From Pantoea coffeiphila (GTDB lineage Bacteria > Pseudomonadota > Gammaproteobacteria > Enterobacterales > Enterobacteriaceae), in contig NZ_JAFBFW010000002.1 in NCBI RefSeq assembly GCF_016909495.1, forward strand, positions 496,001-560,000: 64,000 nt of DNA. Reading direction: 5' to 3'. Of the stretch, positions 34,878 to 52,276 are shown piece after piece. The position numbers and the translations under genes are program-made. Below the pieces are notes generated by a model. It was not told the origin of the DNA. It saw only the letters and a program-made list of their open reading frames with translations, and ran no database searches. Each line of letters begins with the position of its first letter. Position 1 is the first letter of the stretch.

Positions 34878-37025
34878 TCAGAACTGATAAGCCAGCGTCG
34901 CACCGCCGCCCCAGTTGCGTCCCGGGGCCGGTTCGAAGTAACGACCGTTGCCTTCGTTAACAATCACCGACCCGACGTACTGGCGATCGAACAGGTTGTC
35001 CACGCGGCCGAACAGGTCCAGCGACCAGCGGCTCCAGTTAAAGCGATAGCCGGTGTTCAGGCTGGTTACCGCATAGGACGGTGCCTGAGCATCGTTGGCG
35101 TCATCGGCCTGGATGCTGCTTAAATAGCGAATATCCGCGCCGGCGTGCCAGCCGCTCTCCGGTGCATATTCCAGCGAGGCGTAGCCCATATTGCGGGCGA
35201 TACCCGGTAAGCGATTACCCGCCGGGGTGCAGCTGCCGCTGGACGAACAGGTTTCGTTGCGGTAGGTGGCATCCAGCAGCGTCCACGCCATTTTCAGACG
35301 CCAGTCCTGGGCGAACTGCTGATCGAAGCCCAGCTCCAGGCCACGGCGACGAGTTTCCCCGGCGTTTTTATACACCGCTCGACCGTACTGGCTCTTATCC
35401 ACCACCAGCTCGTTGTCAGTGTTGGTCTGGAAGATGGCGGCGGTCAGCAGGCCGTAACCGATGCGGGTTTTGCTGCCGATCTCAAAGGTATCGCTGGTGG
35501 CGGGTTTCAGGCCAAGATTCAGGCCGGTTTCGCTACCGGACGTTGAGCGATAGGAAAGCTCGTTGATGGTCGGCGTTTCAAAACCACGACCGGCGGAAGC
35601 ATAAAGATTCCACGCATCGGTCACCGCATAGTTGATCGAACCCATCGGCAGCAGCTTGTGATAGCGCGCGCTGCCGCTGTCGTCACCGTTGCCCTGAGTA
35701 ATATAGTAGTCGGTAGAATCAAAACTGACCGTGCTGTAACGCAGACCGGCATCCAGCGTCCAGGCGGAAGAGAGCTGCCAGCTGGTTTGCAGATAGGGGT
35801 CGAGATTCCACATGGTGTTCTTCTCGTTGCGGCGCTGATCCCCTTTCTCACCGAACTGCGGCACGTTGTTCACCAGGTTATAGTTCTGGAAGCCCTGACG
35901 GCGCTCGGTCATGGTTTCATAGTCCAGCCCGGCAATCAGCGAAACCGGCATCGATCCCAGCTGGTCGTCATGCTTCCAGCGGGTATCAATCCCCTGGTAT
36001 TTACGTTCCAGCACGATCACGCCGCCCGGATAGGCCGCGTTCTGCTGAGTCGCGTAAGGAATGGACTGATACTGCGTGGTGTGGCGCTCGCCGTGCCACG
36101 TGGTCAATGTCAGTTCGTCGTTATCACTCATCTGGCGCTGGTAGCGCAGGCCAATCTGCGTCTGGTCAAGGCTCTTGCGCGTATTGTACTGATCGCCGCG
36201 CGGCGACTGCTTCGGATTGGCTTTGTATTCGGCCTCGCTCAGGCCGCCGGGATCGTTAGCATCCACCGATACGCTGTTAAACATCAGCGTCAGAGTGCTG
36301 ACATCGTCCAGCCGCACGCCGAGTTTACCGTTACCGAGGCTTTTCTGCGTACCGCTATGGTCGCGGAAGCCATGGGTGGTAAAGCGGGAACCGGAAATGG
36401 TGTAGTTGACGTCACCGGCCTGAGTCCCGTCGCCGGTTGCACCGCTGGCCTTAACGCTGTTGCGCCAGGTGCCGTAGCTGCCGAAGTAAGTGCCTGCTTC
36501 CAGCGTGGTGGGCTGACTGCCGGTGGTGGTGTCAATATTCACCACGCCGCCGGAGGCGTTACCGTAAAGCGCGGAGTACGGGCCGCGCAGCACTTCCACT
36601 TTGCCAACGGAATTGATATCGATATTCGAGGTCTGGCCCTGGCCGTCCGGCATGGTCGCAGGAATACCGTCAACGTAGATGCGCACGCCGCGTACGCCGT
36701 ACATGGAGCGGCTGCCGAAGCCACGCACTGATAATTGCAGATCCTGCGCGTAGTTCTGGCGGTTCTGAATTTGCAGGCCCGGCACGCTGCCCAGGCTTTC
36801 AGACAGGTTCACCTGCGCCGTGCTGTGGCGCAGATCGTCGCCCTCCACCACGCTGACGGCGGCAGGGGTGTCCAGTTCGGACAGACCATTACGATGTTTG
36901 ATCACCATCAGGGTGGAATCCTGTCCCTGAGCGGCGGTTGCAGAGGTTTGCGCAAAGCTGACGGCTGTAGGAACGATGATCAACATCGGCGTCAGCAGCA
37001 ATACAGAGGTTTTATTTTTATTCAC
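34878..37025 (-). CDS. pqqU: TonB-dependent receptor, PqqU (YncD)-like
   Basis: A 715-residue outer-membrane receptor. A signal peptide (about residues 1-25) is followed by a TonB-box-like STLMVIKH, the plug domain SELDTPAAVSVVEGDDLRHS with PGLQIQNRQNYAQDLQLSVR, and a 22-strand barrel ending AYQF. Long segments (IYVDGIPATMPDGQGQTSNI, GRGFETPTINELSYRS, GRVDNLFDRQYVGSVIVNE) match E. coli YncD, shown to import PQQ and renamed PqqU. Its position directly upstream of a PQQ enzyme supports the same role here. The alternative, a generic siderophore receptor, is less likely. Confidence 0.85.
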   Translation of the reverse strand: MNKNKTSVLLLTPMLIIVPTAVSFAQTSATAAQGQDSTLMVIKHRNGLSELDTPAAVSVVEGDDLRHSTAQVNLSESLGSVPGLQIQNRQNYAQDLQLSVRGFGSRSMYGVRGVRIYVDGIPATMPDGQGQTSNIDINSVGKVEVLRGPYSALYGNASGGVVNIDTTTGSQPTTLEAGTYFGSYGTWRNSVKASGATGDGTQAGDVNYTISGSRFTTHGFRDHSGTQKSLGNGKLGVRLDDVSTLTLMFNSVSVDANDPGGLSEAEYKANPKQSPRGDQYNTRKSLDQTQIGLRYQRQMSDNDELTLTTWHGERHTTQYQSIPYATQQNAAYPGGVIVLERKYQGIDTRWKHDDQLGSMPVSLIAGLDYETMTERRQGFQNYNLVNNVPQFGEKGDQRRNEKNTMWNLDPYLQTSWQLSSAWTLDAGLRYSTVSFDSTDYYITQGNGDDSGSARYHKLLPMGSINYAVTDAWNLYASAGRGFETPTINELSYRSTSGSETGLNLGLKPATSDTFEIGSKTRIGYGLLTAAIFQTNTDNELVVDKSQYGRAVYKNAGETRRRGLELGFDQQFAQDWRLKMAWTLLDATYRNETCSSSGSCTPAGNRLPGIARNMGYASLEYAPESGWHAGADIRYLSSIQADDANDAQAPSYAVTSLNTGYRFNWSRWSLDLFGRVDNLFDRQYVGSVIVNEGNGRYFEPAPGRNWGGGATLAYQF

Positions 37026-39919: not shown

Positions 39920-40082
39920 CCCCTCTTGCAACGCTGCCGGTGGTGGCGTTGCAGTTTTGCGTAAAGACGAATTAAAAAAACCGTTAAACCCGCACTCTTC
40001 AGATTTTTACCCTTGTTAGCGACCCGCCCGAAGGCCACATTCCTTTTGTCTGAACACTGATTCAACCGAAAGGAATAACAAG

Positions 40083-40532
40083 ATGAAAAAGACCCTGATT
40101 ATGGCTTTATCCGTAATGATGATTGCCAGCAGCAGCCTGAGCGCCTTTGCCCAGGGGCCGGACAACGGCCGCGACGCACAGCAGCAGCCAATAAAGCACC
40201 AGCAGCAGAAACAACAGCAGGACAATGGCGGGCAGCCTCAGCAGAATCAGCACGCGAACGGCGGGCAGCCGCCGCGTGAAAACAACGCGCGCCCGCAGCA
40301 GGCGTCGCACCAGCAGGCACACGGCAATAAACCAGAGCGCCAGCAGCCTGACTTCCGTAAGGGACGCCCGCTGCCGCAGCAGTATCGCGGTGCAGGCTAT
40401 CAGGTTAACGACTGGAAAAAACACGGCCTGAAAGCACCACCGTCAGGCCATCGCTGGATGAACGTGAACGGCAACTACGTGCTGATTGCTATCGCTACTG
40501 GCGTGATTGCTTCGGTGATTGCCCACCAGTAA
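40083..40532 (+). CDS. RcnB-family periplasmic protein, Gln/Asn-rich
   Basis: A 149-residue secreted protein. The signal peptide ends at AFA (residue 23). Residues 24-88 are a low-complexity Gln/Asn/His/Pro linker with several QQQ runs. The C-terminal domain from about 90 (DFRKGRPLPQQYRGAGYQVN) and the hydrophobic tail YVLIAIATGVIASVI define the RcnB family. RcnB modulates nickel and cobalt export in E. coli; the His-rich linker could bind metal. A second RcnB-like gene lies at 47701. No rcnA or rcnR is in the window. Confidence 0.8.
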   Translation: MKKTLIMALSVMMIASSSLSAFAQGPDNGRDAQQQPIKHQQQKQQQDNGGQPQQNQHANGGQPPRENNARPQQASHQQAHGNKPERQQPDFRKGRPLPQQYRGAGYQVNDWKKHGLKAPPSGHRWMNVNGNYVLIAIATGVIASVIAHQ

Positions 40533-40564
40533 CGACCCGAGGCTGCGCCGGGAATGGGGTGGAG

Positions 40565-40612
40565 CCGGATTCGGGTGTGAATATGTCAACGGCAAATCAC
40601 ACCCGCATCCGG
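40565..40612. repeat. Long inverted repeat between convergent genes
   Basis: CCGGATTCGGGTGTGA (40565-40580) pairs with TCACACCCGCATCCGG (40597-40612) over 15 of 16 positions around a 16-base loop. It lies between the RcnB-like gene and the convergent ABC ATPase gene and may terminate both; there is no T-run. Confidence 0.75.
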
Positions 40613-40665
40613 GGCATCACGGCCTGAACGGCAGCTGTCGCTCATTTCGGCTAATGCCGGCGGAG

Positions 40666-42249
40666 CTATGCCACCGCACCAGCCTCTTCCAGCCAGCCCA
40701 CGCGCATTTCAGGCACCGCACGCAGCAGCCGGGCGGTGTACTCGTCCAGCGGCGCGGTAAACACCTGATCCAGCCGCCCCTGGCGCACCACTTTGCCGTA
40801 TCGCAGCACCATCACCTCATCGGCCACCGCCTGAACCACGTGCAGATCGTGGGTGATAAACAGCATCGACACGCCGGTTTCTTCCTGTAGCGATTTCAGC
40901 AGCGCCAGCACTTCGCGACCGACCAGCGGATCGAGTGCGGAAGTCGGCTCATCGCAGACAATCAGTGCCGGATCGACCGCCAGCGCGCGGGCGATACAGA
41001 CGCGCTGCTTCTGACCACCGGATAGCGCATGCGGATAGCGATCCGCCAGCTGCGGCGGCAGGCCAACCTTTTCCAGCAGTTCGCTGACTCGCGCCTGCCG
41101 CTGCAGCGGCGTCAGCGTGGTCAGACAAACCATCGAGCGCGCAATCTGCACACCGATGGTAAGCCGCGGATTCAGCGCGGTGTCCGGATGCTGATGGATC
41201 ATCTGTACCGACTGGAGCTGCTGGCGGGAACGCTGGCGCAGTGCAGCAGGCAGCAGCTGGCCGTTAAAGCGCACGCTGCCGTGAGCGGGGGCAACCAGCC
41301 CGCAAATCAGCCTTCCCAGCGTCGATTTTCCGGCACCCGACTCGCCAATCAGCGCCAGAGTACGGCCCCGCCCGATGGTCAGCGAGACGTCGTCCAGCAC
41401 GCGGTTGGCCTGATAATCAACGGAAATCTGCTCGGCGGTCAGCAGCGGCAGCGTGGTACTGCGCGGTTGATGCGGTTCGCCGTGGCTGTGCAGCAGGTCG
41501 CGGGTATAGGCCTGCTCAGGCGCGGCCAGCAGCTCGGCGGTATTGCCGCACTCCACTTCGCGTCCGTGGCGCAGCACCATAATGCGTTGGCTGATCTGCG
41601 CCACCACCGCCAGATCGTGGCTGATATACAGCGCAGCGACTCCGGTCAGGCGGATCACTTCGCGGATTGCCTTCAGCACTTCCAGCTGGGTGGTCACATC
41701 CAGCGCGGTGGTCGGTTCATCAAAGATAATCAGCTCAGGACCGGCGCAGATCGCCATTGCGATCATCGCACGCTGCAGCTGCCCGCCCGACACCTGATGC
41801 GGATAGCGGTGGAAAAAGTCCTGCGGCTGCGGCAACTGTAGCTGACTGAAAATCTCAATCGCCCGCACTATCGCCTGCTGACGATTCAGTATCCGATGGC
41901 GAATAGCCGCTTCGATCACCTGCTCGCCGATCTTTTTCGCCGGGTTAAACGCCGCGCTGGCCGACTGCGCCACGTAGGCAATTTTCGCGCCGCGCACGCC
42001 GCGTAGCTGGCGTTCGGAAAGCCCGGTCAGCTCGCGCCCGGCAAAGTGGATTTTGCCGCCGCCGAGCTTCATGCCAAAACGGAAATGGCCGAGGATCGCC
42101 TGACCGATGGTGGATTTCCCCGCGCCCGACTCTCCGATCAGCCCCAGCACCTCGCCCTTTTTCAGGGTGAAGGAGATATCCTGCACCAGCACGGCATTCC
42201 CGGCGGTGACCCGCAGCTGCTCAACGCGTAACAGTGGTTGTTGGCTCAT
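40666..42249 (-). CDS. Peptide-type ABC transporter ATPase, fused DppD-DppF type
   Basis: A 527-residue protein with two complete oligopeptide-type ATPase domains. Domain 1 has GESGAGKSTIG, VSGGQLQRAMIAMA and IIFDEPTTALD. Domain 2 (from about 275) repeats GESGAGKSTLG, then LSGGQKQRVCIARALA and IVCDEPTSALD. Dipeptide systems usually use two separate proteins; fused forms occur (for example YejF, GsiA). It is the last gene of the operon that starts with the homocysteine methyltransferase. It begins 3 bases after the DppC-like stop. Confidence 0.9.
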   Translation of the reverse strand: MSQQPLLRVEQLRVTAGNAVLVQDISFTLKKGEVLGLIGESGAGKSTIGQAILGHFRFGMKLGGGKIHFAGRELTGLSERQLRGVRGAKIAYVAQSASAAFNPAKKIGEQVIEAAIRHRILNRQQAIVRAIEIFSQLQLPQPQDFFHRYPHQVSGGQLQRAMIAMAICAGPELIIFDEPTTALDVTTQLEVLKAIREVIRLTGVAALYISHDLAVVAQISQRIMVLRHGREVECGNTAELLAAPEQAYTRDLLHSHGEPHQPRSTTLPLLTAEQISVDYQANRVLDDVSLTIGRGRTLALIGESGAGKSTLGRLICGLVAPAHGSVRFNGQLLPAALRQRSRQQLQSVQMIHQHPDTALNPRLTIGVQIARSMVCLTTLTPLQRQARVSELLEKVGLPPQLADRYPHALSGGQKQRVCIARALAVDPALIVCDEPTSALDPLVGREVLALLKSLQEETGVSMLFITHDLHVVQAVADEVMVLRYGKVVRQGRLDQVFTAPLDEYTARLLRAVPEMRVGWLEEAGAVA

Positions 42250-42252
42250 GAT

Positions 42253-43068
42253 TTACTCCTGCCAGCTGCGGGTGTGGTGGCTTAACAGCCAGTCGGCAAC
42301 GCTGTTCAGCGCAATCGCCAGCAGCGCGATGGCCGCACCGGGGATCAGCGCGGCCCAGACGCCAAACAGAATGCCGTCTTTATTATCCCGTGCCAGCCCG
42401 CCCCAGTCGGCGGTCGGCGGCTGAATACCCATGCCCAGGAACGACAGCGCAGAAAGGAACAGCAGGATAAAGATAAAGCGCAGGGCAAACTCCGCGATCA
42501 GCGTGGTGAGCGCATTGGGCAGGATCTCACGCCACAATACCCAGCTCAGGCGCTCACCGCGCAGCCTGGCAACTTCAATAAACTCCTGCGCCGCAATGTC
42601 CACCGCCAGCGAACGCGCCACGCGCAGCACCCGGGTGGATTCAAGGAAACCCAGCACCAGCACGATCACCGGAATGGTTTTCGGCAGCATCGCCAGCACC
42701 ACCAGTGCAAGAATAAGCGTGGGGATCGCCATCAGAATATCGTTCAGGCGGGAGATAAGCTGGTCGACCCAGCCGCGACAGAAACCGGCCAGGAAACCAA
42801 GAAACGTCCCGACGGCGAAGGCCAGCAGCGTTGCTACGGCGCTGACGCTCAGCGAAGTACGGGTGCCCCAGATCAGCCGGGAAAGCAGATCGCGCCCCAG
42901 GTTATCGGTCCCCAGCCAGTTTTCCGCCGTGACCCCGCTCCATGCGCTGCCCACTACCTGGTCTGGCGCATACGGCGACAGCCAGGGGGCGAAAATCGCC
43001 ACAAGAATAAACAGGCCCAGCCCGATCACACCGGGCAGCACCGCAAATTTCAGCCTAAACATCCACAT
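42253..43068 (-). CDS. Peptide-type ABC transporter permease, DppC-like
   Basis: A 271-residue permease with six hydrophobic segments. TDNLGRDLLSRLIWGTRTSL is the DppC signature, and EVARLRGERLSWVLWREILPN is the ATPase-contacting EAA loop. The start at 43068 (MWMFRLKF) has AGGAA just upstream; a GTG at 43098 would add ten polar residues and has a weaker ribosome site. Confidence 0.88.
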   Translation of the reverse strand: MWMFRLKFAVLPGVIGLGLFILVAIFAPWLSPYAPDQVVGSAWSGVTAENWLGTDNLGRDLLSRLIWGTRTSLSVSAVATLLAFAVGTFLGFLAGFCRGWVDQLISRLNDILMAIPTLILALVVLAMLPKTIPVIVLVLGFLESTRVLRVARSLAVDIAAQEFIEVARLRGERLSWVLWREILPNALTTLIAEFALRFIFILLFLSALSFLGMGIQPPTADWGGLARDNKDGILFGVWAALIPGAAIALLAIALNSVADWLLSHHTRSWQE

Positions 43069-43136
43069 CAATTCCTGGTTAGTCCCGGCAGTGTGCACCT
43101 TGCTGCACCACCGAGGGTAAAAATTATACCTGCCGC

Positions 43137-44126
43137 TTAGCGGCTGTGGCGCAGGCGCGGGTTAGCCAACAGCGCGACGACATCGGCCAGCAGATTCAGC
43201 AAAATATAGATCCCCGCGAGTAGCAGGGCACAGTCCTGAATCACCGGGATATCACGCTTGCTGATGCTGTCGACCATATACTGCCCCAGGCCAGGGTAAA
43301 CAAACACGTTTTCAACGATCACCACGCCGACCATCAGCCAGGCAAGGTTTAACACGATCACGTTAATAATCGGCCCCCATGCGTTTGGCAGCACGTGCCG
43401 GAAGAGGATCGCCGAAGGCGACAGCCCCTTCATCAGCGCCGTATCTACCCAGGCTGCATTCTGCGCACTCACCAGCGCGGCCCGGGTCATATTGCTCATA
43501 TGGCCAAGGATCGCCAGAATCAGCGTCATGCACGGCAGAGCGATGGCCAGCAGTCGGTCGCCAAGCGGCATATCGTCGGAAATGCTGCTGTTGCTGGGCA
43601 GCCAGAACAGCGTGATGGAAAATATCAGGATCAGCAGATAGCCGGAGAAAAACTCCGGCAGCGATACGGCAGCGCGGGTAAACAGGCTTAGCAGCCGGTC
43701 CAGCCAGCTACCCTGGTAACGGGCGGACAGAAAGCCGATCACCAGCGCCAGCGGTACGGCGACGATGGCGGTGAAAAAGGCCAGCGACAGCGTATTACCC
43801 AGCCGATCCAGCAGCACCGGAGCAATTGCCTCCCGGCTGGTAAAGCTGTGGCCAAAATCACCGTGCAGCACGCCGCCCAGCCAGCCCAGATAGCGCCCCA
43901 GCGCGGGCTGGTCGAGGCCCAGCTGCTCGTTCAGCGCCGCCACCGCCTGCGGTGTTGCGGTCTGGCCGAGGATCGCCGTTGCCGCGTTGCCGGGCAGCAG
44001 CTGGATGCCGATAAAGATCAGCGCCGATACCACCAGCAGCATCACCACTCCGGCCAACAGCCGCAGCCCGATCAGTTTTAACAGGGGAAGGTGCCCCTTC
44101 CCCTTTGTTTCATGCAAATTACTCAA
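43137..44126 (-). CDS. Peptide-type ABC transporter permease, DppB-like
   Basis: A 329-residue permease of the DppB/OppB type. The N-terminal helix RLLAGVVMLLVVSALIFIGI is followed by LPGNAATAILG, with the EAA loop near ALMKGLSPSAILFRHVLPNA. The start is a TTG at 44126, with AGGA 6 bases upstream; no in-frame ATG lies nearby, so the TTG start is likely real. Confidence 0.87.
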   Translation of the reverse strand: MSNLHETKGKGHLPLLKLIGLRLLAGVVMLLVVSALIFIGIQLLPGNAATAILGQTATPQAVAALNEQLGLDQPALGRYLGWLGGVLHGDFGHSFTSREAIAPVLLDRLGNTLSLAFFTAIVAVPLALVIGFLSARYQGSWLDRLLSLFTRAAVSLPEFFSGYLLILIFSITLFWLPSNSSISDDMPLGDRLLAIALPCMTLILAILGHMSNMTRAALVSAQNAAWVDTALMKGLSPSAILFRHVLPNAWGPIINVIVLNLAWLMVGVVIVENVFVYPGLGQYMVDSISKRDIPVIQDCALLLAGIYILLNLLADVVALLANPRLRHSR

Positions 44127-44163
44127 AAGATATCCTGCAACCTGAAGCTGAACCGGAAAGCCG

Positions 44164-45708
44164 TTAGGCGAACCACACTTTTTCCGCAGCGCGGTTGCCG
44201 CTCATGGTGAAGCCCGGAATCGCGACAAACCCGTTGATTTTTTTACTGCTGGCGTCCAGCGAGTCGGCATACAGCGGAATGATTTCGCTGCCCTGCTCCA
44301 CCAGCATCAGCTGAATGTCGTGGTAAATCTGACGGCGCTTCTGCTCGTCCTGCTCGCCACGGGCAGCGTTAACCAGCTGGTCAAACTTAGGCTCTTTCCA
44401 CTGCGACTCATTCCACGGTGCGTTACTGGTAAACACCAGCGACAGCAGCGCATCCGCCGTCGGGCGCAGCGACCAGTTTGAGGAAACAAACGGCTTCTTC
44501 ATCCAGACGTTATCCCAGAAGGCATCATCCGGCACGCGCTCAACCTTCAGTGGAATACCGGCACGGGTGGCCGAGTTTTGGTACAGCTGGCCGGCATCTA
44601 CCGCCCCCGGGAAGCCGGACTCGGCGACGGACAGCACCAGCGGGCCGGAGAAACCGGTTTTCTGCCAGTGGAATTTGGCTTTTTCCGGATCGTAAGGACG
44701 CTGGGGAATGTCTTTCGCAAAATACTGGCTGGACGGGAAGATCGGGTTGTCGTTAGCCACGGTGCCGTAGCCGCCCAGCACGGTTTTGATAATCTGCTCG
44801 CGGTCGATGGCGTATTTCAGTGCCAGACGCCCATCTAGGGTATTAAACGGTGCCGCCGTTGCAAGCCCCGGGAAAGTGAAGATCTGGCTGTCGCGCGAGC
44901 GCTGCAGCTGGATGTTCGGCATATTCTTCAGGCGGTCAACAATACGTGGGTTAACGCGGTTGATAATATGCGCCGAGCCGCTGGCCAGCGCCGCAACGCG
45001 CGCGGTGGAATCATTCATCGCCAGCGTTTCCACGGAATCCACGTGGCCACGAGCCGGGTTCCAGTGGTTCGGATTACACTTCACCAGCGTTCGCACGCCC
45101 GGCTTGAAGCTTTCCAGAATAAAAGCACCGGTCCCGATGCCTTTATCAAAATTCTCGTTTTCTGCGGTAATGGCGAAGTGAACGTCGCTGAGCAGGGCAA
45201 TAAATTCCACGTTCGGCTCTTTCAGCTTGATCGTCACCTGATTTGGGCTGGTGGCTTCCAGCGACACAACCGGGTCGAGATAGCCTTTCACCGACGAGCT
45301 GGATTTTTCATCGCGGTGATGGTTCAGCGAATAAATCACATCTTTCGCCGTCAGCGTGCGGCCATCGTGGAACTGCACGCCCTGACGAATATTCAGTACC
45401 CAGGTTTTGCTGCCGTCACTGGTTTCCCAGCTCTCCGCCAGCGAGGGAACAATCTTGCCGTTTTCATCGACTTCCGCCAGGCAGTTAAACAGCTGGGAAC
45501 CGACGAAATACATATAGGATTCGAACCAGAACGCCGGATCGAGGCGGTCGGTGCTGGAGGCGTTATCCATACCCACAATCAGATGGCCGCCTTTTTTCGG
45601 CGTGGTGGACGGCACTTCAGCCGCCGTTGCAGCAGTAAATGGCCAGCTGGTGCAGGCCGCAGCCACCGAAAGCGCTCCGGTGGTTTTAATAAAGTCGCGA
45701 CGATTCAT
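44164..45708 (-). CDS. Peptide-type ABC substrate-binding protein (family 5), Tat signal
   Basis: A 514-residue family 5 solute-binding protein (OppA/DppA type). The N-terminus MNRRDFIKTTGALSVAAACT carries a twin-arginine motif, so export is probably by Tat, uncommon for this family in enterobacteria. The domain shows SLAESWETSDGSKTWVLNIR and GVQFHDGRTLTAKDVIYSL, both family signatures. Family 5 proteins bind peptides, nickel, glutathione and other small compounds; the MetJ-like operator and the methyltransferase upstream suggest a methionine-related ligand. Confidence 0.87.
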   Translation of the reverse strand: MNRRDFIKTTGALSVAAACTSWPFTAATAAEVPSTTPKKGGHLIVGMDNASSTDRLDPAFWFESYMYFVGSQLFNCLAEVDENGKIVPSLAESWETSDGSKTWVLNIRQGVQFHDGRTLTAKDVIYSLNHHRDEKSSSSVKGYLDPVVSLEATSPNQVTIKLKEPNVEFIALLSDVHFAITAENENFDKGIGTGAFILESFKPGVRTLVKCNPNHWNPARGHVDSVETLAMNDSTARVAALASGSAHIINRVNPRIVDRLKNMPNIQLQRSRDSQIFTFPGLATAAPFNTLDGRLALKYAIDREQIIKTVLGGYGTVANDNPIFPSSQYFAKDIPQRPYDPEKAKFHWQKTGFSGPLVLSVAESGFPGAVDAGQLYQNSATRAGIPLKVERVPDDAFWDNVWMKKPFVSSNWSLRPTADALLSLVFTSNAPWNESQWKEPKFDQLVNAARGEQDEQKRRQIYHDIQLMLVEQGSEIIPLYADSLDASSKKINGFVAIPGFTMSGNRAAEKVWFA

Positions 45709-45766
45709 GTTGTGTTTCCTGGTTTTAATTTGTTTTTATTGGTTTTATCTTTCGTTGCCGTAGAGA

Positions 45767-46675
45767 TTACTTCAGCGCCGCGGCCAGTCGACCGATATGC
45801 TCGGGACCGATACCGCAGCAGCCACCGACCAGCGTCGCGCCAGCCGCCACCCACTCCTGCGCCCAGTTCAGGTAGCCTTCAGGGTGCGTATCCTTGCGCA
45901 GGGCGCTCAGCCCTTCATTAGCGCCGCCGCTGTTGCTGCCGTGGTCAAAGGCGTTAGCGTAAACGCCAATGCCGATATCCGCACCCAGCTGCTCACGCAC
46001 GGCTGCCGCCTGCTTCACCGCAGAAGACATCACCTCAGGGTGGCTGCAGTTAAACAGCACATTTTCTACGCCCAGCTCAATCGCCCGCCTCACCGCCGCG
46101 CTCACGCTCTCACCGGAGCGCAAGGTGCTGACGGCATCGTACAGCTCTGGCTCGTCCTGCAGGGTAAATGAAAGCCACAGCGGCTGGGGCTGACCGGCAA
46201 GCACGGCATGGATGGATTCGGCTTCCGCAATCGAGCTAATCGTTTCACCCAGCCAGAGATCAACGTAAGGTGCCTGAGCGGCGACCAGTACACGATGGAT
46301 CGCCTGTGCCTGCTGCTCATTAAACAGATCGGGACGATAAGAACCCAGCGCAGGGGGGAGGCTTCCGGCAACACGCACCGGGGTAATGATATCGGCAGAA
46401 TCAGCAGCCTCACGGGCCAGCTGGCCGGCAAGTGCAGCCAGGCGAGCACCATCATTTGCAAAGCGCTCTTCACCAATATGGAAGGGCACAACCGCGTAGC
46501 TGTTAGTGGTGATCGTTTCAGCCCCGGCCGCGATATAGCTGTTGTGGACTTCACGGACGCGCTCCGGCGCTTCATACAGCGCCAGTGCAGACCATTCCGG
46601 CTGGCGGAAAGGTGCACCGATGCGCGCCAGTTCACGCCCCATGCCCCCGTCCAGAATTTTTACCTGCTGCGACAT
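45767..46675 (-). CDS. Homocysteine S-methyltransferase (MmuM-like)
   Basis: A 302-residue zinc-dependent methyltransferase of the MmuM/Pfam S-methyl_trans family. The zinc cysteines are Cys210 (VLFNCSHPE) and Cys286-Cys287 (LVGGCCGIGPEHI). KILDGGMGRELARIG opens the barrel. MmuM makes two methionines from S-methylmethionine and homocysteine. The gene leads the operon with the peptide-type transporter, 58 bases upstream of the binding protein, and follows a MetJ-like operator. In E. coli the partner is the permease MmuP; here an ABC importer takes that place. Confidence 0.88.
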   Translation of the reverse strand: MSQQVKILDGGMGRELARIGAPFRQPEWSALALYEAPERVREVHNSYIAAGAETITTNSYAVVPFHIGEERFANDGARLAALAGQLAREAADSADIITPVRVAGSLPPALGSYRPDLFNEQQAQAIHRVLVAAQAPYVDLWLGETISSIAEAESIHAVLAGQPQPLWLSFTLQDEPELYDAVSTLRSGESVSAAVRRAIELGVENVLFNCSHPEVMSSAVKQAAAVREQLGADIGIGVYANAFDHGSNSGGANEGLSALRKDTHPEGYLNWAQEWVAAGATLVGGCCGIGPEHIGRLAAALK

Positions 46676-46723
46676 TCGGTTGTTCCCGTTAACGAATTTC
46701 GAATGACAGCATGCTACATAAGT

Positions 46724-46755
46724 TGATGGCTACATGTCCAGACGTCTATACGTTA
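46724..46755 (-). promoter_or_regulatory. MetJ operator, four tandem met boxes
   Basis: Four contiguous 8-base units at 46724, 46732, 46740 and 46748. The third (46740-46747) is the exact consensus AGACGTCT; the other three each match 5 of 8 positions. Tandem 8-bp boxes are the hallmark of MetJ-SAM binding. The array ends about 50 bases upstream of the methyltransferase start, a promoter-blocking position. Confidence 0.78.
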
Positions 46756-46820
46756 ATGAACGGCAAAGTTAAGCAGAAAATGAGTTGAAAGCCTATCTCA
46801 GACCGTATCCGCCACGCTGG

Positions 46821-47462
46821 TTAAAACAGGAGTTTCGCCAGCCCCAACCCAAAACCAAGTACACCCACCTGCGAGGCAACAACCCACTTAGTTTGCAGCG
46901 CCAGCGAACGGTGAAGCTCCGTGCGCAAGCCTTCAAATTTAATATCAAATTTGTTTTCCAGGTTCAGCAGATCCGCTTTGGTGGTGTAGTTAGATTTAAT
47001 CACCGCCACATCCGATTTTAACTCCACCATATCCGTCCGAAGCTCGGTGACATTCGCCTGCAGCACGCCAACGTCTTTCTTCAGACCCGCCACATCCGTT
47101 TGCAGCACGGCGACATCTTTCTTCAGACTCGTCATATCCGCCTGCAGCACGCCAACGTCTTTCTTCAACCCCGTCATGTCCGTCTGCAGCACGGCGACAT
47201 CCGTCTTTAGCACAGCCACATCCGTCTTTAATCCGGTCATATCCACCTGCAGCACGCCAACATCTTTCTTCAAACCCGTCATATCCGTTTGCAGCAAAGC
47301 CACGTCCGTTTTTAATCCGGTCATATCCGCCTGCAGCACGCCAACATCTTTCTTCAAACTCGTCATATCCATTTGCAGCACAGCCACGTCCGTCTTTAGG
47401 CCGGTCACATCCTGCTGCAGCGTATCGGTGTTTTTTTCCAGCTTAACTACGCGCTCAACCAT
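46821..47462 (-). CDS. Heptad-repeat coiled-coil protein with C-terminal membrane anchor
   Basis: A 213-residue protein. Residues 20-138 consist of eight repeats of a 14-residue unit (T-G-L-K-T/K-D-V-A/G-V-L-Q-T/A-D-M), one of them extended by an extra heptad (VAVLKTD), giving a long continuous coiled coil. Residues 160-192 are a second helical region (KADLLNLENKFDIKFEGLRT), and 193-213 (WVVASQVGVLGFGLGLAKLL) is a membrane helix. The matching 42-bp DNA repeat is well conserved, so copy number may vary. C-terminally anchored coiled coils of this sort occur in bacteria and phages without assigned function. Confidence 0.75.
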   Translation of the reverse strand: MVERVVKLEKNTDTLQQDVTGLKTDVAVLQMDMTSLKKDVGVLQADMTGLKTDVALLQTDMTGLKKDVGVLQVDMTGLKTDVAVLKTDVAVLQTDMTGLKKDVGVLQADMTSLKKDVAVLQTDVAGLKKDVGVLQANVTELRTDMVELKSDVAVIKSNYTTKADLLNLENKFDIKFEGLRTELHRSLALQTKWVVASQVGVLGFGLGLAKLLF

Positions 47463-47664
47463 GGCATGTCCCTTTTCCCGTTGGGGATAATTTCATCTGT
47501 GGGGATCGTAAGGTAAGCAAATACCGGCTGACAACAGGCCAAAGGGCGATTTTCTGCGGGCCGTCTCGATAAATTGAGATGTAACGATATGCAAGCCATC
47601 TTGTTGAAAAATATGAATAAGATGACTCGGTAACGGATTGTTGTATTAGATGCGGCAGGGAGGT

Positions 47665-47700: not shown

Positions 47701-48081
47701 TTAGTAGTGGCCTAAGGCACTGCCCAGAATGATCGAGGTGATCACGCCGGTGGCGGCGGCAATCAGCACGTAGTTGCCGTCAATGTAGCCCCAGTACGCG
47801 CCGCGCGGCGGTTCATACAGACCACGGCGATGCCAGTCATCAATACGGTAGTCGTAACCGCGGAAGTGAGGCGGCAGCGGCTGTCCGCGACGGAAGTCGT
47901 GGCCGTTCCAGGCAAAACGATCGCGCTCGGCAGGACGGAAGCGCTCATGGCGATCGCGATCGGGTCCGCGATTGTCATGACGATCCGGGCCATTTCCCGG
48001 GCCGTCAGCGTGCGAGAAGGTGGAAAAGAAGCTGCTTGCGGTTAATACGCTAAGAACCAGTGCCAGTGTTGATTTTTTCAT
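47701..48081 (-). CDS. RcnB-family periplasmic protein, Arg/Asp/His-rich
   Basis: A 126-residue secreted protein; signal peptide to about residue 25 (FSTFSHA). The linker DGPGNGPDRHDNRGPDRDRH is rich in Asp, Arg and His, unlike the Gln/Asn linker of the paralogue at 40083. The conserved C-terminal domain reads FRRGQPLPPHFRGYDYRIDD, then a Gly/Ala-rich hydrophobic tail. A role in metal tolerance is inferred from RcnB only. The two paralogues bracket the MetJ-linked operon. Confidence 0.82.
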   Translation of the reverse strand: MKKSTLALVLSVLTASSFFSTFSHADGPGNGPDRHDNRGPDRDRHERFRPAERDRFAWNGHDFRRGQPLPPHFRGYDYRIDDWHRRGLYEPPRGAYWGYIDGNYVLIAAATGVITSIILGSALGHY

Positions 48082-48822: not shown

Positions 48823-50526
48823 TTACTCCTGCTCCTGCCACATCCGCCGATAGATCCCACCCTGTGCCAACAGTTGCTGATGACTACCGCGTTCGACAAT
48901 CTGCCCATGCTCCATGACCAGAATCTGGCTGGCGTACTCCACGGTGCGCAGGCGATGGGCGATGATCAACACCGTGCGGCCGCGCGCCAGGCGGGTCAGC
49001 GCCTGCTGAATATCCGCCTGCGAAAGCGGGTCGAGCAGCGCCGTCACTTCATCCAGCAGGATCACCGGCGGGTCCTTCAGCATCATGCGGGCAATCGAAA
49101 GACGCTGCCGTTCACCACCCGACAAACGCTGGGCCCCTTCTCCCAAACGCGTGTGATATCCCTGCGGCAGCTGTTGGATAAATCCGTCGCAGCACGCCTC
49201 ACGGCAGGCGGCGATCGCGTCGGCTTCACTGGCATCCGGCCTGCCAAGGCGGACGTTATCCAGCACCGAGCCGTCGAACAGCTGCACATCCTGGAAGACA
49301 TAGCCAATACGCTGATACAGCGCGCGGGTACCGATCTGCGCCAGCGGCACGCCGCCGAGCGAAATTTCCCCCCGTTGCGGCTCATAGAAGCGTCCCAGCA
49401 GATGCAGCAGCGTGCTTTTACCGCTGCCAGACGGACCAACCAGCGCGGTGACGCTGCCTTCAGGCACAGCAAATGAAACGCCCTGAATTGTCGGCTGTCG
49501 ATCGTAACTAAAATGCACATCGGTAAAATGGATCGCATTGTTTTCCGGCAGCGGCACGCTGTTCTCATCATTCAGCACCGGCTCGGCCATCAGCGCGTCC
49601 AGTCGCTGCTGCGACTGCCGCATCACGCTCATTAACGTGAAGTAAGCGGCAGCATCCAGCAGCGGCTCCAGCACCTTGATCGACACCAGTATAAACAGCA
49701 GCCAGGTCAGCGGATCGAGCGCCTGCTGTTGCAGCAGTCCTCCCGCCACGATAAACAGCACCACCAGTCCCAGTTCGGTAAACAGGCGGAACAGCTGCAC
49801 CGCTCCGGCTCCCCAGGCTTCCAGCCCCATGCTGGCGCGGCGGATCTCACCGAACGCGTCGTCGAGCTTCGCCAGCATGCCATGATGACGGTGGAACAGC
49901 CGCAGCGTTTTAATTCCGCCGATAAACTCGATCAGCAGCCCGGACACCCGCAGCAGCCGCTCGCTCTGTAGATGGGTGCCGCGCAGTAAAAAGTGAGATC
50001 CCCCCCACAGCAGCAGCACTGCCAGCGGCAGCGGGGCAATCAGCGCCAGCGTTAGCGGCACGTTGATCGCCAGCAGGATCAAGACAAAAATCAGCGCGGT
50101 GCCGATCCCGGTCACCACTTCCGGCAGCAGATGAGAAAAAATCTGCTCGACCCGCATCATATGGTCGGTCAGTAGCTGGGTGGTGGCCCCGAGCCGGTGG
50201 CGCTGAAAGTAACCCAGCGGCAGCCGACGCAGCTGTTCCGCCGCCGCTTCACGGTAGCGCTGCATCACCTCGTAGCTGCCAACAAAGCACCAGAGCTGAC
50301 CCACGTGGGAACACAACAGCTGCACCAGCAGGCAGGCCAGCAGTGCCGTCAGCACCTGCGGCCAATGCGACCAGCTTCCGGCCCCCGGCGTGATGTCGCC
50401 GATCGCCAGCCAGGCAATAAACAGTGGCGCAACCGTACACAGCTGGGCTATCAGCCTCAGCAGCATCCCGGTCAGCACCTGACGGCGGCCTTCCGCACTG
50501 CGCTGAAGCGGACTAAGCATTGACAT
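48823..50526 (-). CDS. ABC exporter-fold protein, YbtQ-like
   Basis: A 567-residue fused membrane-ATPase half transporter. Residues 20-300 hold six hydrophobic segments, and the ATPase domain has GPSGSGKSTLLHLLG, LSGGERQRLSIARMML and VILLDEVTALLD. The start at 50526 overlaps the upstream gene by 14 bases and has GAGGA about 9 bases before it; the ATG at 50520 is an alternative. Such pairs next to a FyuA-like receptor (YbtP/YbtQ in Yersinia) import ferric yersiniabactin despite their exporter fold. Confidence 0.83.
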   Translation of the reverse strand: MSMLSPLQRSAEGRRQVLTGMLLRLIAQLCTVAPLFIAWLAIGDITPGAGSWSHWPQVLTALLACLLVQLLCSHVGQLWCFVGSYEVMQRYREAAAEQLRRLPLGYFQRHRLGATTQLLTDHMMRVEQIFSHLLPEVVTGIGTALIFVLILLAINVPLTLALIAPLPLAVLLLWGGSHFLLRGTHLQSERLLRVSGLLIEFIGGIKTLRLFHRHHGMLAKLDDAFGEIRRASMGLEAWGAGAVQLFRLFTELGLVVLFIVAGGLLQQQALDPLTWLLFILVSIKVLEPLLDAAAYFTLMSVMRQSQQRLDALMAEPVLNDENSVPLPENNAIHFTDVHFSYDRQPTIQGVSFAVPEGSVTALVGPSGSGKSTLLHLLGRFYEPQRGEISLGGVPLAQIGTRALYQRIGYVFQDVQLFDGSVLDNVRLGRPDASEADAIAACREACCDGFIQQLPQGYHTRLGEGAQRLSGGERQRLSIARMMLKDPPVILLDEVTALLDPLSQADIQQALTRLARGRTVLIIAHRLRTVEYASQILVMEHGQIVERGSHQQLLAQGGIYRRMWQEQE

Positions 50527-52276
50527 GGGTATCTTCCTCACGGCGGATTTGCCACTGTGCCAGCTGAGACTGGCTGTGCCACATCTGTTGATAAAGCCGG
50601 TGCTCACTGAGCAGTTGCTGATGCGTTCCGCATCCGGTTAACCGCCCCGCTTCCATCACCAGCAAACAGTCGGCCTGCTGAACGGCGAACAGCCGGTGAG
50701 CGATGGTCAGTACGGTAACCTTCGGGCGCTGCTGGCGGAGTTCCCGATAGAAGGCGGCCTCGGTGAGCAGATCGGCAAAAGCGGTGGCCTCGTCAAGGAT
50801 CAGCAGCGGCGTCTCCGCCAGCAGAGCGCGCGCGATGGCGATACGCTGGCGTTCACCGCCGGAAAGCCGCGCCCCGCCCTCGCCGATTGTTGTCGCCAGC
50901 CCCTGCGGTAACGCCTCGACAAAGGCGCGCCCCTGAGCAATTTCCAGCGCCTGCCACAGCTGTTCATCGCTGGCCTGTGGCTGAGCCAGGCGCAGGTTGT
51001 CGGCCAGCGAACCTTTGAACAGAAACACCTGCTGGCTGACCACCGCCAGCAGCGAGGCGCGGGTGGCATCATCCATCTCGGCCAGCGCCATGCCGCCCAG
51101 CGTGATCGTCCCACTCGTTGGCGGCAGCATCCCCGAAAGCAGTCCTGCAAGCGTCGATTTTCCTGCGCCGGATGGCCCCACCAGCGCATAAAAGCCGCCT
51201 GGCACAAGGGTGATATTCAGCGCATCAATCACCGTGCGCTGCTCGTAGCTGAAACTCAAATCGCAGGCGCTCAGCGTAATATCGCTCTGCGAAGTCACCG
51301 TGGCGGCGGAATGTCCCTCTGAAGCATCATCAAGAAACGGTGCCATCCGGCTCAGACCGGCGAACAACTCACGGATCAGCGAACCAAAAAAGGTCACGCG
51401 CAGCAGCGGCTTCAGCAGCCCGCTGCCGAGCATCAGGATCAGCAGCAGCGCAGAAACCGACAGCGTGCCCTGGCTCACACGCCACAATCCCAGCGGCAGC
51501 AAAATAAAGATGCTGGCATTCAGCAGCACCACAAACAGCGACCAGGCAGGAACCGCTCGGCGGGTAAAGCGTACCACCAGCTGGTGATAGTCTCGCAGGC
51601 TGTCGTCCAGCAGGCGGAAAGAACGCGCATCCTGGCTAAACGCCTTCATCACCGGGATGCCGCGCACGTACTCCACGATCGCCGAATTCAGGCGCTCGGT
51701 CGCCAGGTGATAGTCCCGGGTACGCTCGGCCATACCGCGCAGGCACAGACGCTGGGCGACAATTGCCAGCGGCACGGTCAGCAGCGCCGCCAGCGCCATT
51801 TTCCAGTCCAGCCAGAACAGAAAAAGTGCAGCAATCAGCGGACTGAATAACGCAGAGATCAGATCGACGGTGTGGTGGGCAATAAAATCCTCAAGCCGCT
51901 GCACGTCGTTCATGATGATTTTGCGCAGGCTGCCCGCGCTGAAGGGGGCCAGCTGCATCAGCGGCAGCCGGGTCAGGGCGCGGGCAATGCGCAGGCGGGT
52001 GTGGTGCAGCACGCGGAAGGCGGCCAGATGGCTGAAATAGCCCGCCAGCGAAGCCAGCAGATATTTACACACCAGCGCCAGCGCCAGCCAGCCTCCCAGA
52101 TGCAGCAGCGAACCACCCTGCTCCACCACGCCCACCGCCCGCCACAGCAGATACCAGGGCAGTAGCTCCAGCAATACGCTGCTGGCAGAGATCGTCAACG
52201 CCAGCAGCAGCGTTGATTTTTCAGCAGCAAGAAGCCGCCGCAGCGTCAGCAGCGGTGATACCGTTTCAACTGTCAT
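50513..52276 (-). CDS. ABC exporter-fold protein, YbtP-like
   Basis: A 587-residue half transporter with six N-terminal hydrophobic segments and an ATPase domain (GPSGAGKSTLAGLLSG, LSGGERQRIAIARALL, LLILDEATAFAD). It is the expected heterodimer partner of the following gene. By analogy with YbtP the pair takes up a ferric siderophore across the inner membrane. It lies 18 bases downstream of the 133-residue gene in the same operon. Confidence 0.83.
   Translation of the reverse strand: MTVETVSPLLTLRRLLAAEKSTLLLALTISASSVLLELLPWYLLWRAVGVVEQGGSLLHLGGWLALALVCKYLLASLAGYFSHLAAFRVLHHTRLRIARALTRLPLMQLAPFSAGSLRKIIMNDVQRLEDFIAHHTVDLISALFSPLIAALFLFWLDWKMALAALLTVPLAIVAQRLCLRGMAERTRDYHLATERLNSAIVEYVRGIPVMKAFSQDARSFRLLDDSLRDYHQLVVRFTRRAVPAWSLFVVLLNASIFILLPLGLWRVSQGTLSVSALLLILMLGSGLLKPLLRVTFFGSLIRELFAGLSRMAPFLDDASEGHSAATVTSQSDITLSACDLSFSYEQRTVIDALNITLVPGGFYALVGPSGAGKSTLAGLLSGMLPPTSGTITLGGMALAEMDDATRASLLAVVSQQVFLFKGSLADNLRLAQPQASDEQLWQALEIAQGRAFVEALPQGLATTIGEGGARLSGGERQRIAIARALLAETPLLILDEATAFADLLTEAAFYRELRQQRPKVTVLTIAHRLFAVQQADCLLVMEAGRLTGCGTHQQLLSEHRLYQQMWHSQSQLAQWQIRREEDTHVNA

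Follow-up and report, generated by a model that had tools for sequence, protein, structure and literature searches.

A predicted MetJ operator ahead of a homocysteine S-methyltransferase and a peptide-family importer in Pantoea coffeiphila: a candidate salvage operon for a methylated sulfur donor

Introduction

The closest described relative of the operon analysed here is the predicted 'MHT1/dppABCD' operon of Augustus and Spicer 2011 (PMC3228920), for which all 9 of the 9 enteric species given there have met boxes. Our operon lies in a 64,000-nucleotide stretch of Pantoea coffeiphila (contig NZ_JAFBFW010000002.1, positions 496,001 to 560,000; the whole stretch is called the window below, and positions are counted from its first letter), where the genes of a homocysteine S-methyltransferase and an ATP-binding cassette (ABC) importer of the peptide/nickel family stand behind a predicted operator of the methionine repressor MetJ. 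The two have in common an enterobacterial host, upstream met boxes and a Dpp-like ABC importer whose genes neighbour that of a homocysteine methyltransferase from the MetH/MmuM superfamily; no difference from that description was found, the match being one of description and not of locus. We regard the present operon as a further, well-conserved case of this predicted type, not as a new type. The passages of Leyn et al. 2014 (PMC4239095) covered here mention mmuP and mmuM and no cluster of the MHT1/dppABCD type. The original prediction, made from the letters of this DNA, had proposed that the importer brings in S-methylmethionine or another methylated sulfur source in place of the permease MmuP and that a peptide-type importer for this ligand would be new. 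The operon type, as said, was predicted in 2011; what stands of the novelty is that no ABC importer for S-methylmethionine was found in the open-licence literature, which was covered in part.

The E. coli mmuPM operon likewise joins a MetJ-regulated enzyme to an importer, and its enzyme belongs to the same Pfam family and has the same three cysteines. However, the transporter is an APC permease there and an ABC system here, the enzymes are only 32% identical, and the permease gene comes first in E. coli, whereas the enzyme gene comes first here. The operator is 2 bases from the start codon in E. coli mmuPM, according to PMC3228920, and 48 bases from it here. The Dpp, Gsi, Nik and Cnt importers are built from the same families of binding protein, two permeases and ATPase, and the ATPase here scores above the cut-offs of Nik and Cnt models. 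The binding protein and permeases, in contrast, fall below the cut-offs of the corresponding models, both ATPase domains are in one chain, and the binding protein has a twin-arginine-type leader.

Results

Four tandem 8-base met boxes, one of them identical to AGACGTCT, which we take to be the met-box consensus, are located at 46724-46755, ahead of a five-gene operon. All five genes lie on the minus strand, in the 5' to 3' order methyltransferase, binding protein, two permeases and double ATPase. The pairing of a methyltransferase with a peptide-type, family-5 importer under a MetJ-like operator, as originally proposed, was right, as judged from the gene families and the operator. The features are as follows.

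46724-46755, minus strand: predicted MetJ operator, reading TAACGTAT (not conserved), AGACGTCT, GGACATGT, AGCCATCA on that strand (matrix score and conservation)
46711-46740, minus strand: promoter-like site with hexamers TGGACA and TAGCAT, overlapped by the operator (consensus match and conservation in the alignment)
45767-46675, minus strand: homocysteine S-methyltransferase of the MHT1 type, 302 amino acids (profile and structure-sequence comparisons)
44164-45708, minus strand: family-5 solute-binding protein, 514 amino acids, with a twin-arginine-type leader (MNRRDFIK) (profile comparisons)
43137-44126, minus strand: ABC permease of the Opp/Nik B type (profile comparisons)
42253-43098, minus strand: ABC permease of the Opp/Nik C type (profile comparisons)
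40666-42249, minus strand: ABC ATPase, both nucleotide-binding domains in a single chain, 527 amino acids (profile comparisons)

On the plus strand, the array reads TGATGGCT ACATGTCC AGACGTCT ATACGTTA, with 5, 5, 8 and 5 of 8 consensus matches per box (23 of 32 in total, counted by hand); when the best four-box array is taken from each of eight upstream regions of E. coli K-12, the matches number 18-24 of 32. A matrix was built from the E. coli K-12 reference operators of metJ/B, metF, metA, metR/E, mmuP, metC, metK and metN, and with it the site scored high, 27.5 bits over four boxes and 22.7 bits over three, where leave-one-out scores of the E. coli operators themselves were 13.8-31.3 and 14.1-25.4 bits, respectively. 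It is the highest-scoring met-box array in the window, and in 5 Mb of first-order simulated sequence no place reached its three- or four-box score and one reached its two-box score. A lone consensus 8-mer is unremarkable, since 6 matches with at most one mismatch were found in the window versus 13.9 expected.

Across the 5.74-Mb assembly, the doubled consensus with at most three mismatches occurs at nine places, which form seven separate sites. Five of the seven are at methionine genes (metJ/metB, metN, mtnK/mtnA, mtnB/methionine aminotransferase and the present operon), and the other two are within an integrase gene and between hexR and the pyruvate kinase gene. A reversed control pattern was commoner, at 35 per strand, which indicates that the doubled consensus by itself is not selective and that the case for the operator is carried by array score and conservation. 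The genome encodes MetJ (93% identity to E. coli MetJ over 105 amino acids). The organism thus has both the repressor and, ahead of a gene, at least two adjacent met boxes of operator-like score. These comparisons confirm the array as a real predicted MetJ operator, and the original observation of it as right and strong.

The operator overlies the -35 hexamer and part of the spacer of the promoter-like site TGGACA-18 nt-TAGCAT (46740-46711, minus strand), an arrangement that would fit repression by blocking RNA polymerase. By consensus match this is the sole such site in 46640-46830, where 0.3 were expected in shuffled sequence. Terminator-like sites over 40300-46900 numbered 16, versus 6.8 expected in shuffles, and most were within genes; no inference was made from them. 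A scan of 40000-47600 found no Rfam family at gathering score, which gives no support to control by a known riboswitch instead of MetJ.

To place the operator in its relatives, we compared loci collected in two ways. Within the genus of the window, the binding protein was present in 15 of 37 genomes (the window's own counted). In all 15 of these loci the enzyme gene adjoins the binding-protein gene, and a three-box core lies 69-73 bases ahead of the enzyme start and scores 18.4-23.3 bits. The 24-base block AGACGTCT-GGACATGT-AGCCATCA is identical in 10 of the 15 loci and has one or two changes in the remaining five, and both promoter hexamers are unchanged throughout; the sequence before the block has diverged, and the fourth box (46748-46755) is not kept. 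The four-box operator of the original prediction is therefore conserved as three boxes.

The second set was collected with the enzyme as query and comprised the best 80 of at least 569 relatives, from named genomes whose species overlap with the genus set; 400 upstream bases were scanned at each locus, except for shorter stretches in three (L026, L035 and L040). Among the matches listed, the closest named enzyme relative was that of Erwinia sp. JUb26 (94% identity). Twenty of the 80 loci are enterobacterial, and all 19 of these that have the importer beside the enzyme show an array of 17.6-25.1 bits over three boxes. The twentieth, of Pantoea sp. A4, has neither importer nor array, its three-box score being -5.1 bits. 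No array was found at the 60 non-enteric loci, where the maximum was 12.7 bits, although four of them have the importer (one Pseudomonas locus, L062, and three alphaproteobacterial loci, L081, L086 and L088). To our knowledge, pseudomonads and alphaproteobacteria lack MetJ, so that arrays restricted to enteric loci are the expected contrast. Among 2000 random 400-base stretches, the 99th percentile was 9.9 bits and the maximum 23.9 bits, these stretches being drawn from the same loci and possibly including true operators.

The enzyme belongs to the homocysteine S-methyltransferase family (PF02574, 206.7 bits against a cut-off of 22). All 82 sequences of the alignment, that of E. coli MmuM among them, have cysteines 210, 286 and 287, presumably the zinc site. 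Its best solved relative is the homocysteine S-methyltransferase 5dml (E 3.5e-21), which we take to be E. coli MmuM, followed by methionine synthases (E 1.1e-17) and, far behind, betaine-homocysteine methyltransferase (best E 5e-8). The name 'MmuM-like' is thus supported at the level of family and cysteines and not at that of the curated MmuM model (NCBIfam PRK09485), of whose cut-off of 215 bits the enzyme reached 121; going by sequence, its methyl donor may differ from that of MmuM.

The strongest evidence on the ligand comes from the importers neighbouring this enzyme family. Within 6.5 kb of the enzyme gene, a family-5 binding protein was found at 23 of the 80 loci, a family-3 (amino acid) binding protein at 36 (6 also with an amino-acid permease), an OpuAC (betaine-type) binding protein at 11 (1 also with a permease), an amino-acid permease alone at 1, and no such partner at 9. 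Partner families were verified on representatives, and neighbours were identified by homology search instead of a naive gene caller, which missed the enzyme reading frame in 19 of the 80 loci and was poor in GC-rich genomes. Some of the nine partnerless loci end at contig edges (L035 has 221 bases upstream, and L074 is a contig of 3.4 kb), and L065 was scored 'none' despite an ATPase fragment, 48% identical to the ATPase of the window, directly upstream. At five pseudomonad loci, the enzyme gene and a gene for a pyridoxal phosphate (PLP) enzyme of Cys/Met metabolism are followed on the same strand by that of a permease with 56-57% identity to E. coli MmuP. In the genome of the window there is no close MmuP relative, the closest being only 41% identical. 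On the enzyme tree, the partners change label 14 times for seven labels (minimum possible 6, shuffled mean 43), a count that takes in combined and 'none' labels, which inflate it, some of them from loci at contig ends. This suggests that importers were exchanged several times around one enzyme family. The simplest reading, and it is a reading, is that all partner importers carry one substrate, S-methylmethionine as the known cargo of MmuP.

It is also conceivable, though rather unlikely in our view, that the imported donor is another methylated compound, such as betaine, dimethylsulfoniopropionate, S-adenosylmethionine or a product of it, with regulation and enzyme unchanged. The 11 loci with an OpuAC binding protein, the membership of betaine-homocysteine methyltransferases in the same enzyme family, and the score below the MmuM cut-off would all fit such a donor. 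However, the enzyme is far closer to 5dml than to betaine-homocysteine methyltransferase, an MmuP relative is present at five loci, and S-methylmethionine is an amino acid and a sulfonium compound at once and might be accepted by importers of several types.

The five pseudomonad loci (L030, L034, L041, L043 and L046) each contain the enzyme, the Cys/Met-metabolism PLP enzyme, the MmuP-like permease and an adjacent, divergent family-3 amino-acid importer, and possibly represent sets for S-methylmethionine degradation.

We then considered the binding protein by itself. A search of 398 genomes of the phylum (E at most 1e-100, best three candidates per genome scored) found relatives in 57 of them. 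Besides the window's own, two matches exceeded 50% identity (74% and 54%), and in both the enzyme gene is next door. In a tree of binding proteins, a single branch (support 98/94) separates the 18 enzyme-linked rows from the 20 unlinked ones. The linked rows are the window, 15 loci (making 16 of the 24 in the alignment, near-copies avoided) and L153 and L154, most of them collected via the enzyme, so that the linkage is in part selection; free of it are the 15 same-genus loci and the two matches of the phylum search. The unlinked rows come from 17 loci with distant relatives, namely 16 of 18 fetched loci and L091 of the window's own genome; one of the loci, L162, stops just past the binding-protein gene, with its downstream side outside the data. 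The twin-arginine leader is supported by TIGR01409 (20.2 against a cut-off of 16.7), the Pfam Tat model falling just short (20.1 against 22.7), and Arg 3 and Arg 4 are nearly invariant in the aligned relatives. W412, R415, P416, T417, D419 and several more tryptophans do not vary among the 24 enzyme-linked binding proteins. W412-x2-R415-P-T-x-D419 was considered as a signature of the branch and dropped, R415-P-T-x-D419 being common to the sister protein of L091.

These data bear on a second alternative, in which methionine is obtained from peptides (methionine-containing or others) brought in by the importer, and the methyltransferase shares no more than the regulation. Peptides are a frequent cargo of family-5 importers, DppA is among the matching solved chains, and X-Pro peptidase-like genes are beside two of the sister importers examined. 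We nevertheless consider a peptide cargo improbable. The binding protein is far under the model cut-offs of DppA (95 of 1005 bits) and GsiB (110 of 594 bits), the operon has no peptidase gene, and the enzyme gene is linked in 15 of 15 same-genus genomes and at both close matches of the phylum search. In addition, Arg355 of DppA, which we take to bind the peptide carboxylate, aligns with Glu363, a position acidic in most of the branch (counted by hand on the printed alignment), which is weakly against a peptide ligand. Asp408, presumably binding the peptide amino group, falls in a gap beside Arg415, where the alignment is ambiguous.

A metal or metallophore cargo of the Nik/Cnt type, for instance for the zinc enzyme, appears very improbable. 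Its case includes the ATPase, which passes the models CntF (423 of 385 bits), CntD (421 of 380), NikD (402 of 319) and NikE (392 of 333), scores that are helped by the counting of both of its domains; the best-scoring models for binding protein and permeases are also of the nickel type, and two RcnB-domain genes are near the operon. But the binding protein is far under the nickel and staphylopine (NikA/CntA) cut-offs (158 of 600, 107 of 393 and 64 of 800 bits), the permeases are likewise well under theirs, and a methionine source fits MetJ control better than a metal does.

Two of the loci retrieved have further features. The sister importer in the window's own genome (L091:1042-14821, contig C1 near 971778) is 40% identical, and its cluster contains two oxidoreductase-like genes dependent on flavin adenine dinucleotide, one HAD-like gene and two aldehyde dehydrogenase-like genes (named by eye). 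The cluster is also kept in L169, of the same family, and may serve amine or amino acid import and oxidation. At L154:8338-13347, in another genome from the class to which P. coffeiphila belongs, cysD and cysN adjoin the enzyme and binding-protein genes, and no permease relatives were found in the 18 kb read.

Around the operon, a gene for a 213-amino-acid coiled-coil-like protein (46821-47462, minus strand) with degenerate tandem repeats of 21, 42 and 84 bases lies directly upstream on the same strand. The genes of the small RcnB-domain proteins flank the operon at 40083-40532 (plus strand) and 47701-48081 (minus strand). Farther away are a TonB-dependent receptor gene at 34878-37025 (minus strand), scoring 1262 bits with the PqqU model, above the curated cut-off of 1200, and, at 48823-52276 (minus strand), two paired ABC transporter genes, presumably of the exporter type, that both encode a membrane domain as well as an ATPase domain and adjoin an OsmC-like gene.

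Discussion

The operator, its conservation and the gene context support an interpretation of the locus as a methionine-repressed salvage operon, in which the importer supplies a methylated sulfur donor, most likely S-methylmethionine, to the homocysteine S-methyltransferase; we put the probability of this at about 0.6. From these observations, we infer the repression, the ligand and the reaction as follows. When methionine, and hence S-adenosylmethionine, is plentiful, MetJ would occupy the met-box array, which overlies the -35 region, and turn the promoter off. When methionine is scarce, the periplasmic binding protein, the peptide/nickel-family ABC importer and the homocysteine S-methyltransferase, of a zinc-dependent type, would be made. 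The importer would then take up a small methylated sulfur donor, S-methylmethionine of plant origin being the likeliest, and the enzyme would transfer the methyl group of the donor to homocysteine, giving two methionines per donor. The original interpretation is in this way partly supported: operator and importer pairing were borne out, and import of S-methylmethionine by this system instead of MmuP is the reading with the best support and probably right, a best guess drawn from genome context.

Several observations weigh against this interpretation. The enzyme misses the MmuM cut-off and is only 32% identical to MmuM, so its methyl donor could differ. Of 197 genomes of the order, 36 have an enzyme relative (E at most 1e-60) and only that of the window has a close importer (best seven candidates per genome scored), which indicates that the enzyme does not depend on this importer. 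The enzyme was seen at none of the 17 loci with merely distant binding-protein relatives, whose neighbours include X-Pro peptidase-like hydrolase, oxidase-like and aldehyde dehydrogenase-like genes, among others, so that the wider binding-protein family has no one shared setting. The MmuP-type loci are not clean one-for-one replacements, as a family-3 importer is present in all five, and the pseudomonad family-3 genes are mostly divergent from the enzyme gene. The passed Nik and Cnt cut-offs, the inflated label count and the partial selection of linked rows count on the same side. Promoter-like sites over 40300-46900 are not enriched (2 found versus 2.2 expected in shuffles), and an AlphaFold2 model from 24 binding-protein sequences was too poor to be used (mean predicted local distance difference test score 51, predicted template modelling score 0.38). 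In the part of the open-licence literature covered, no measurement of ligand, repression or activity was found, and no description of the cluster outside PMC3228920.

We give somewhat better than even odds to the wider proposal that this family-5 branch has come to specialise in importing S-methylmethionine or a related sulfonium methyl donor, and that the importer partnering the enzyme family has been swapped repeatedly, the four types involved being three kinds of ABC system and one APC permease. Should S-methylmethionine be the ligand, a plant-associated bacterium would be able to draw on a store of sulfur and methyl groups made by plants, by a route that depends on a binding protein, and a peptide-type importer would have acquired a ligand that we did not find reported for such importers in the open-licence literature. 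Importer swaps around one enzyme family would also allow several importer types to be annotated together.

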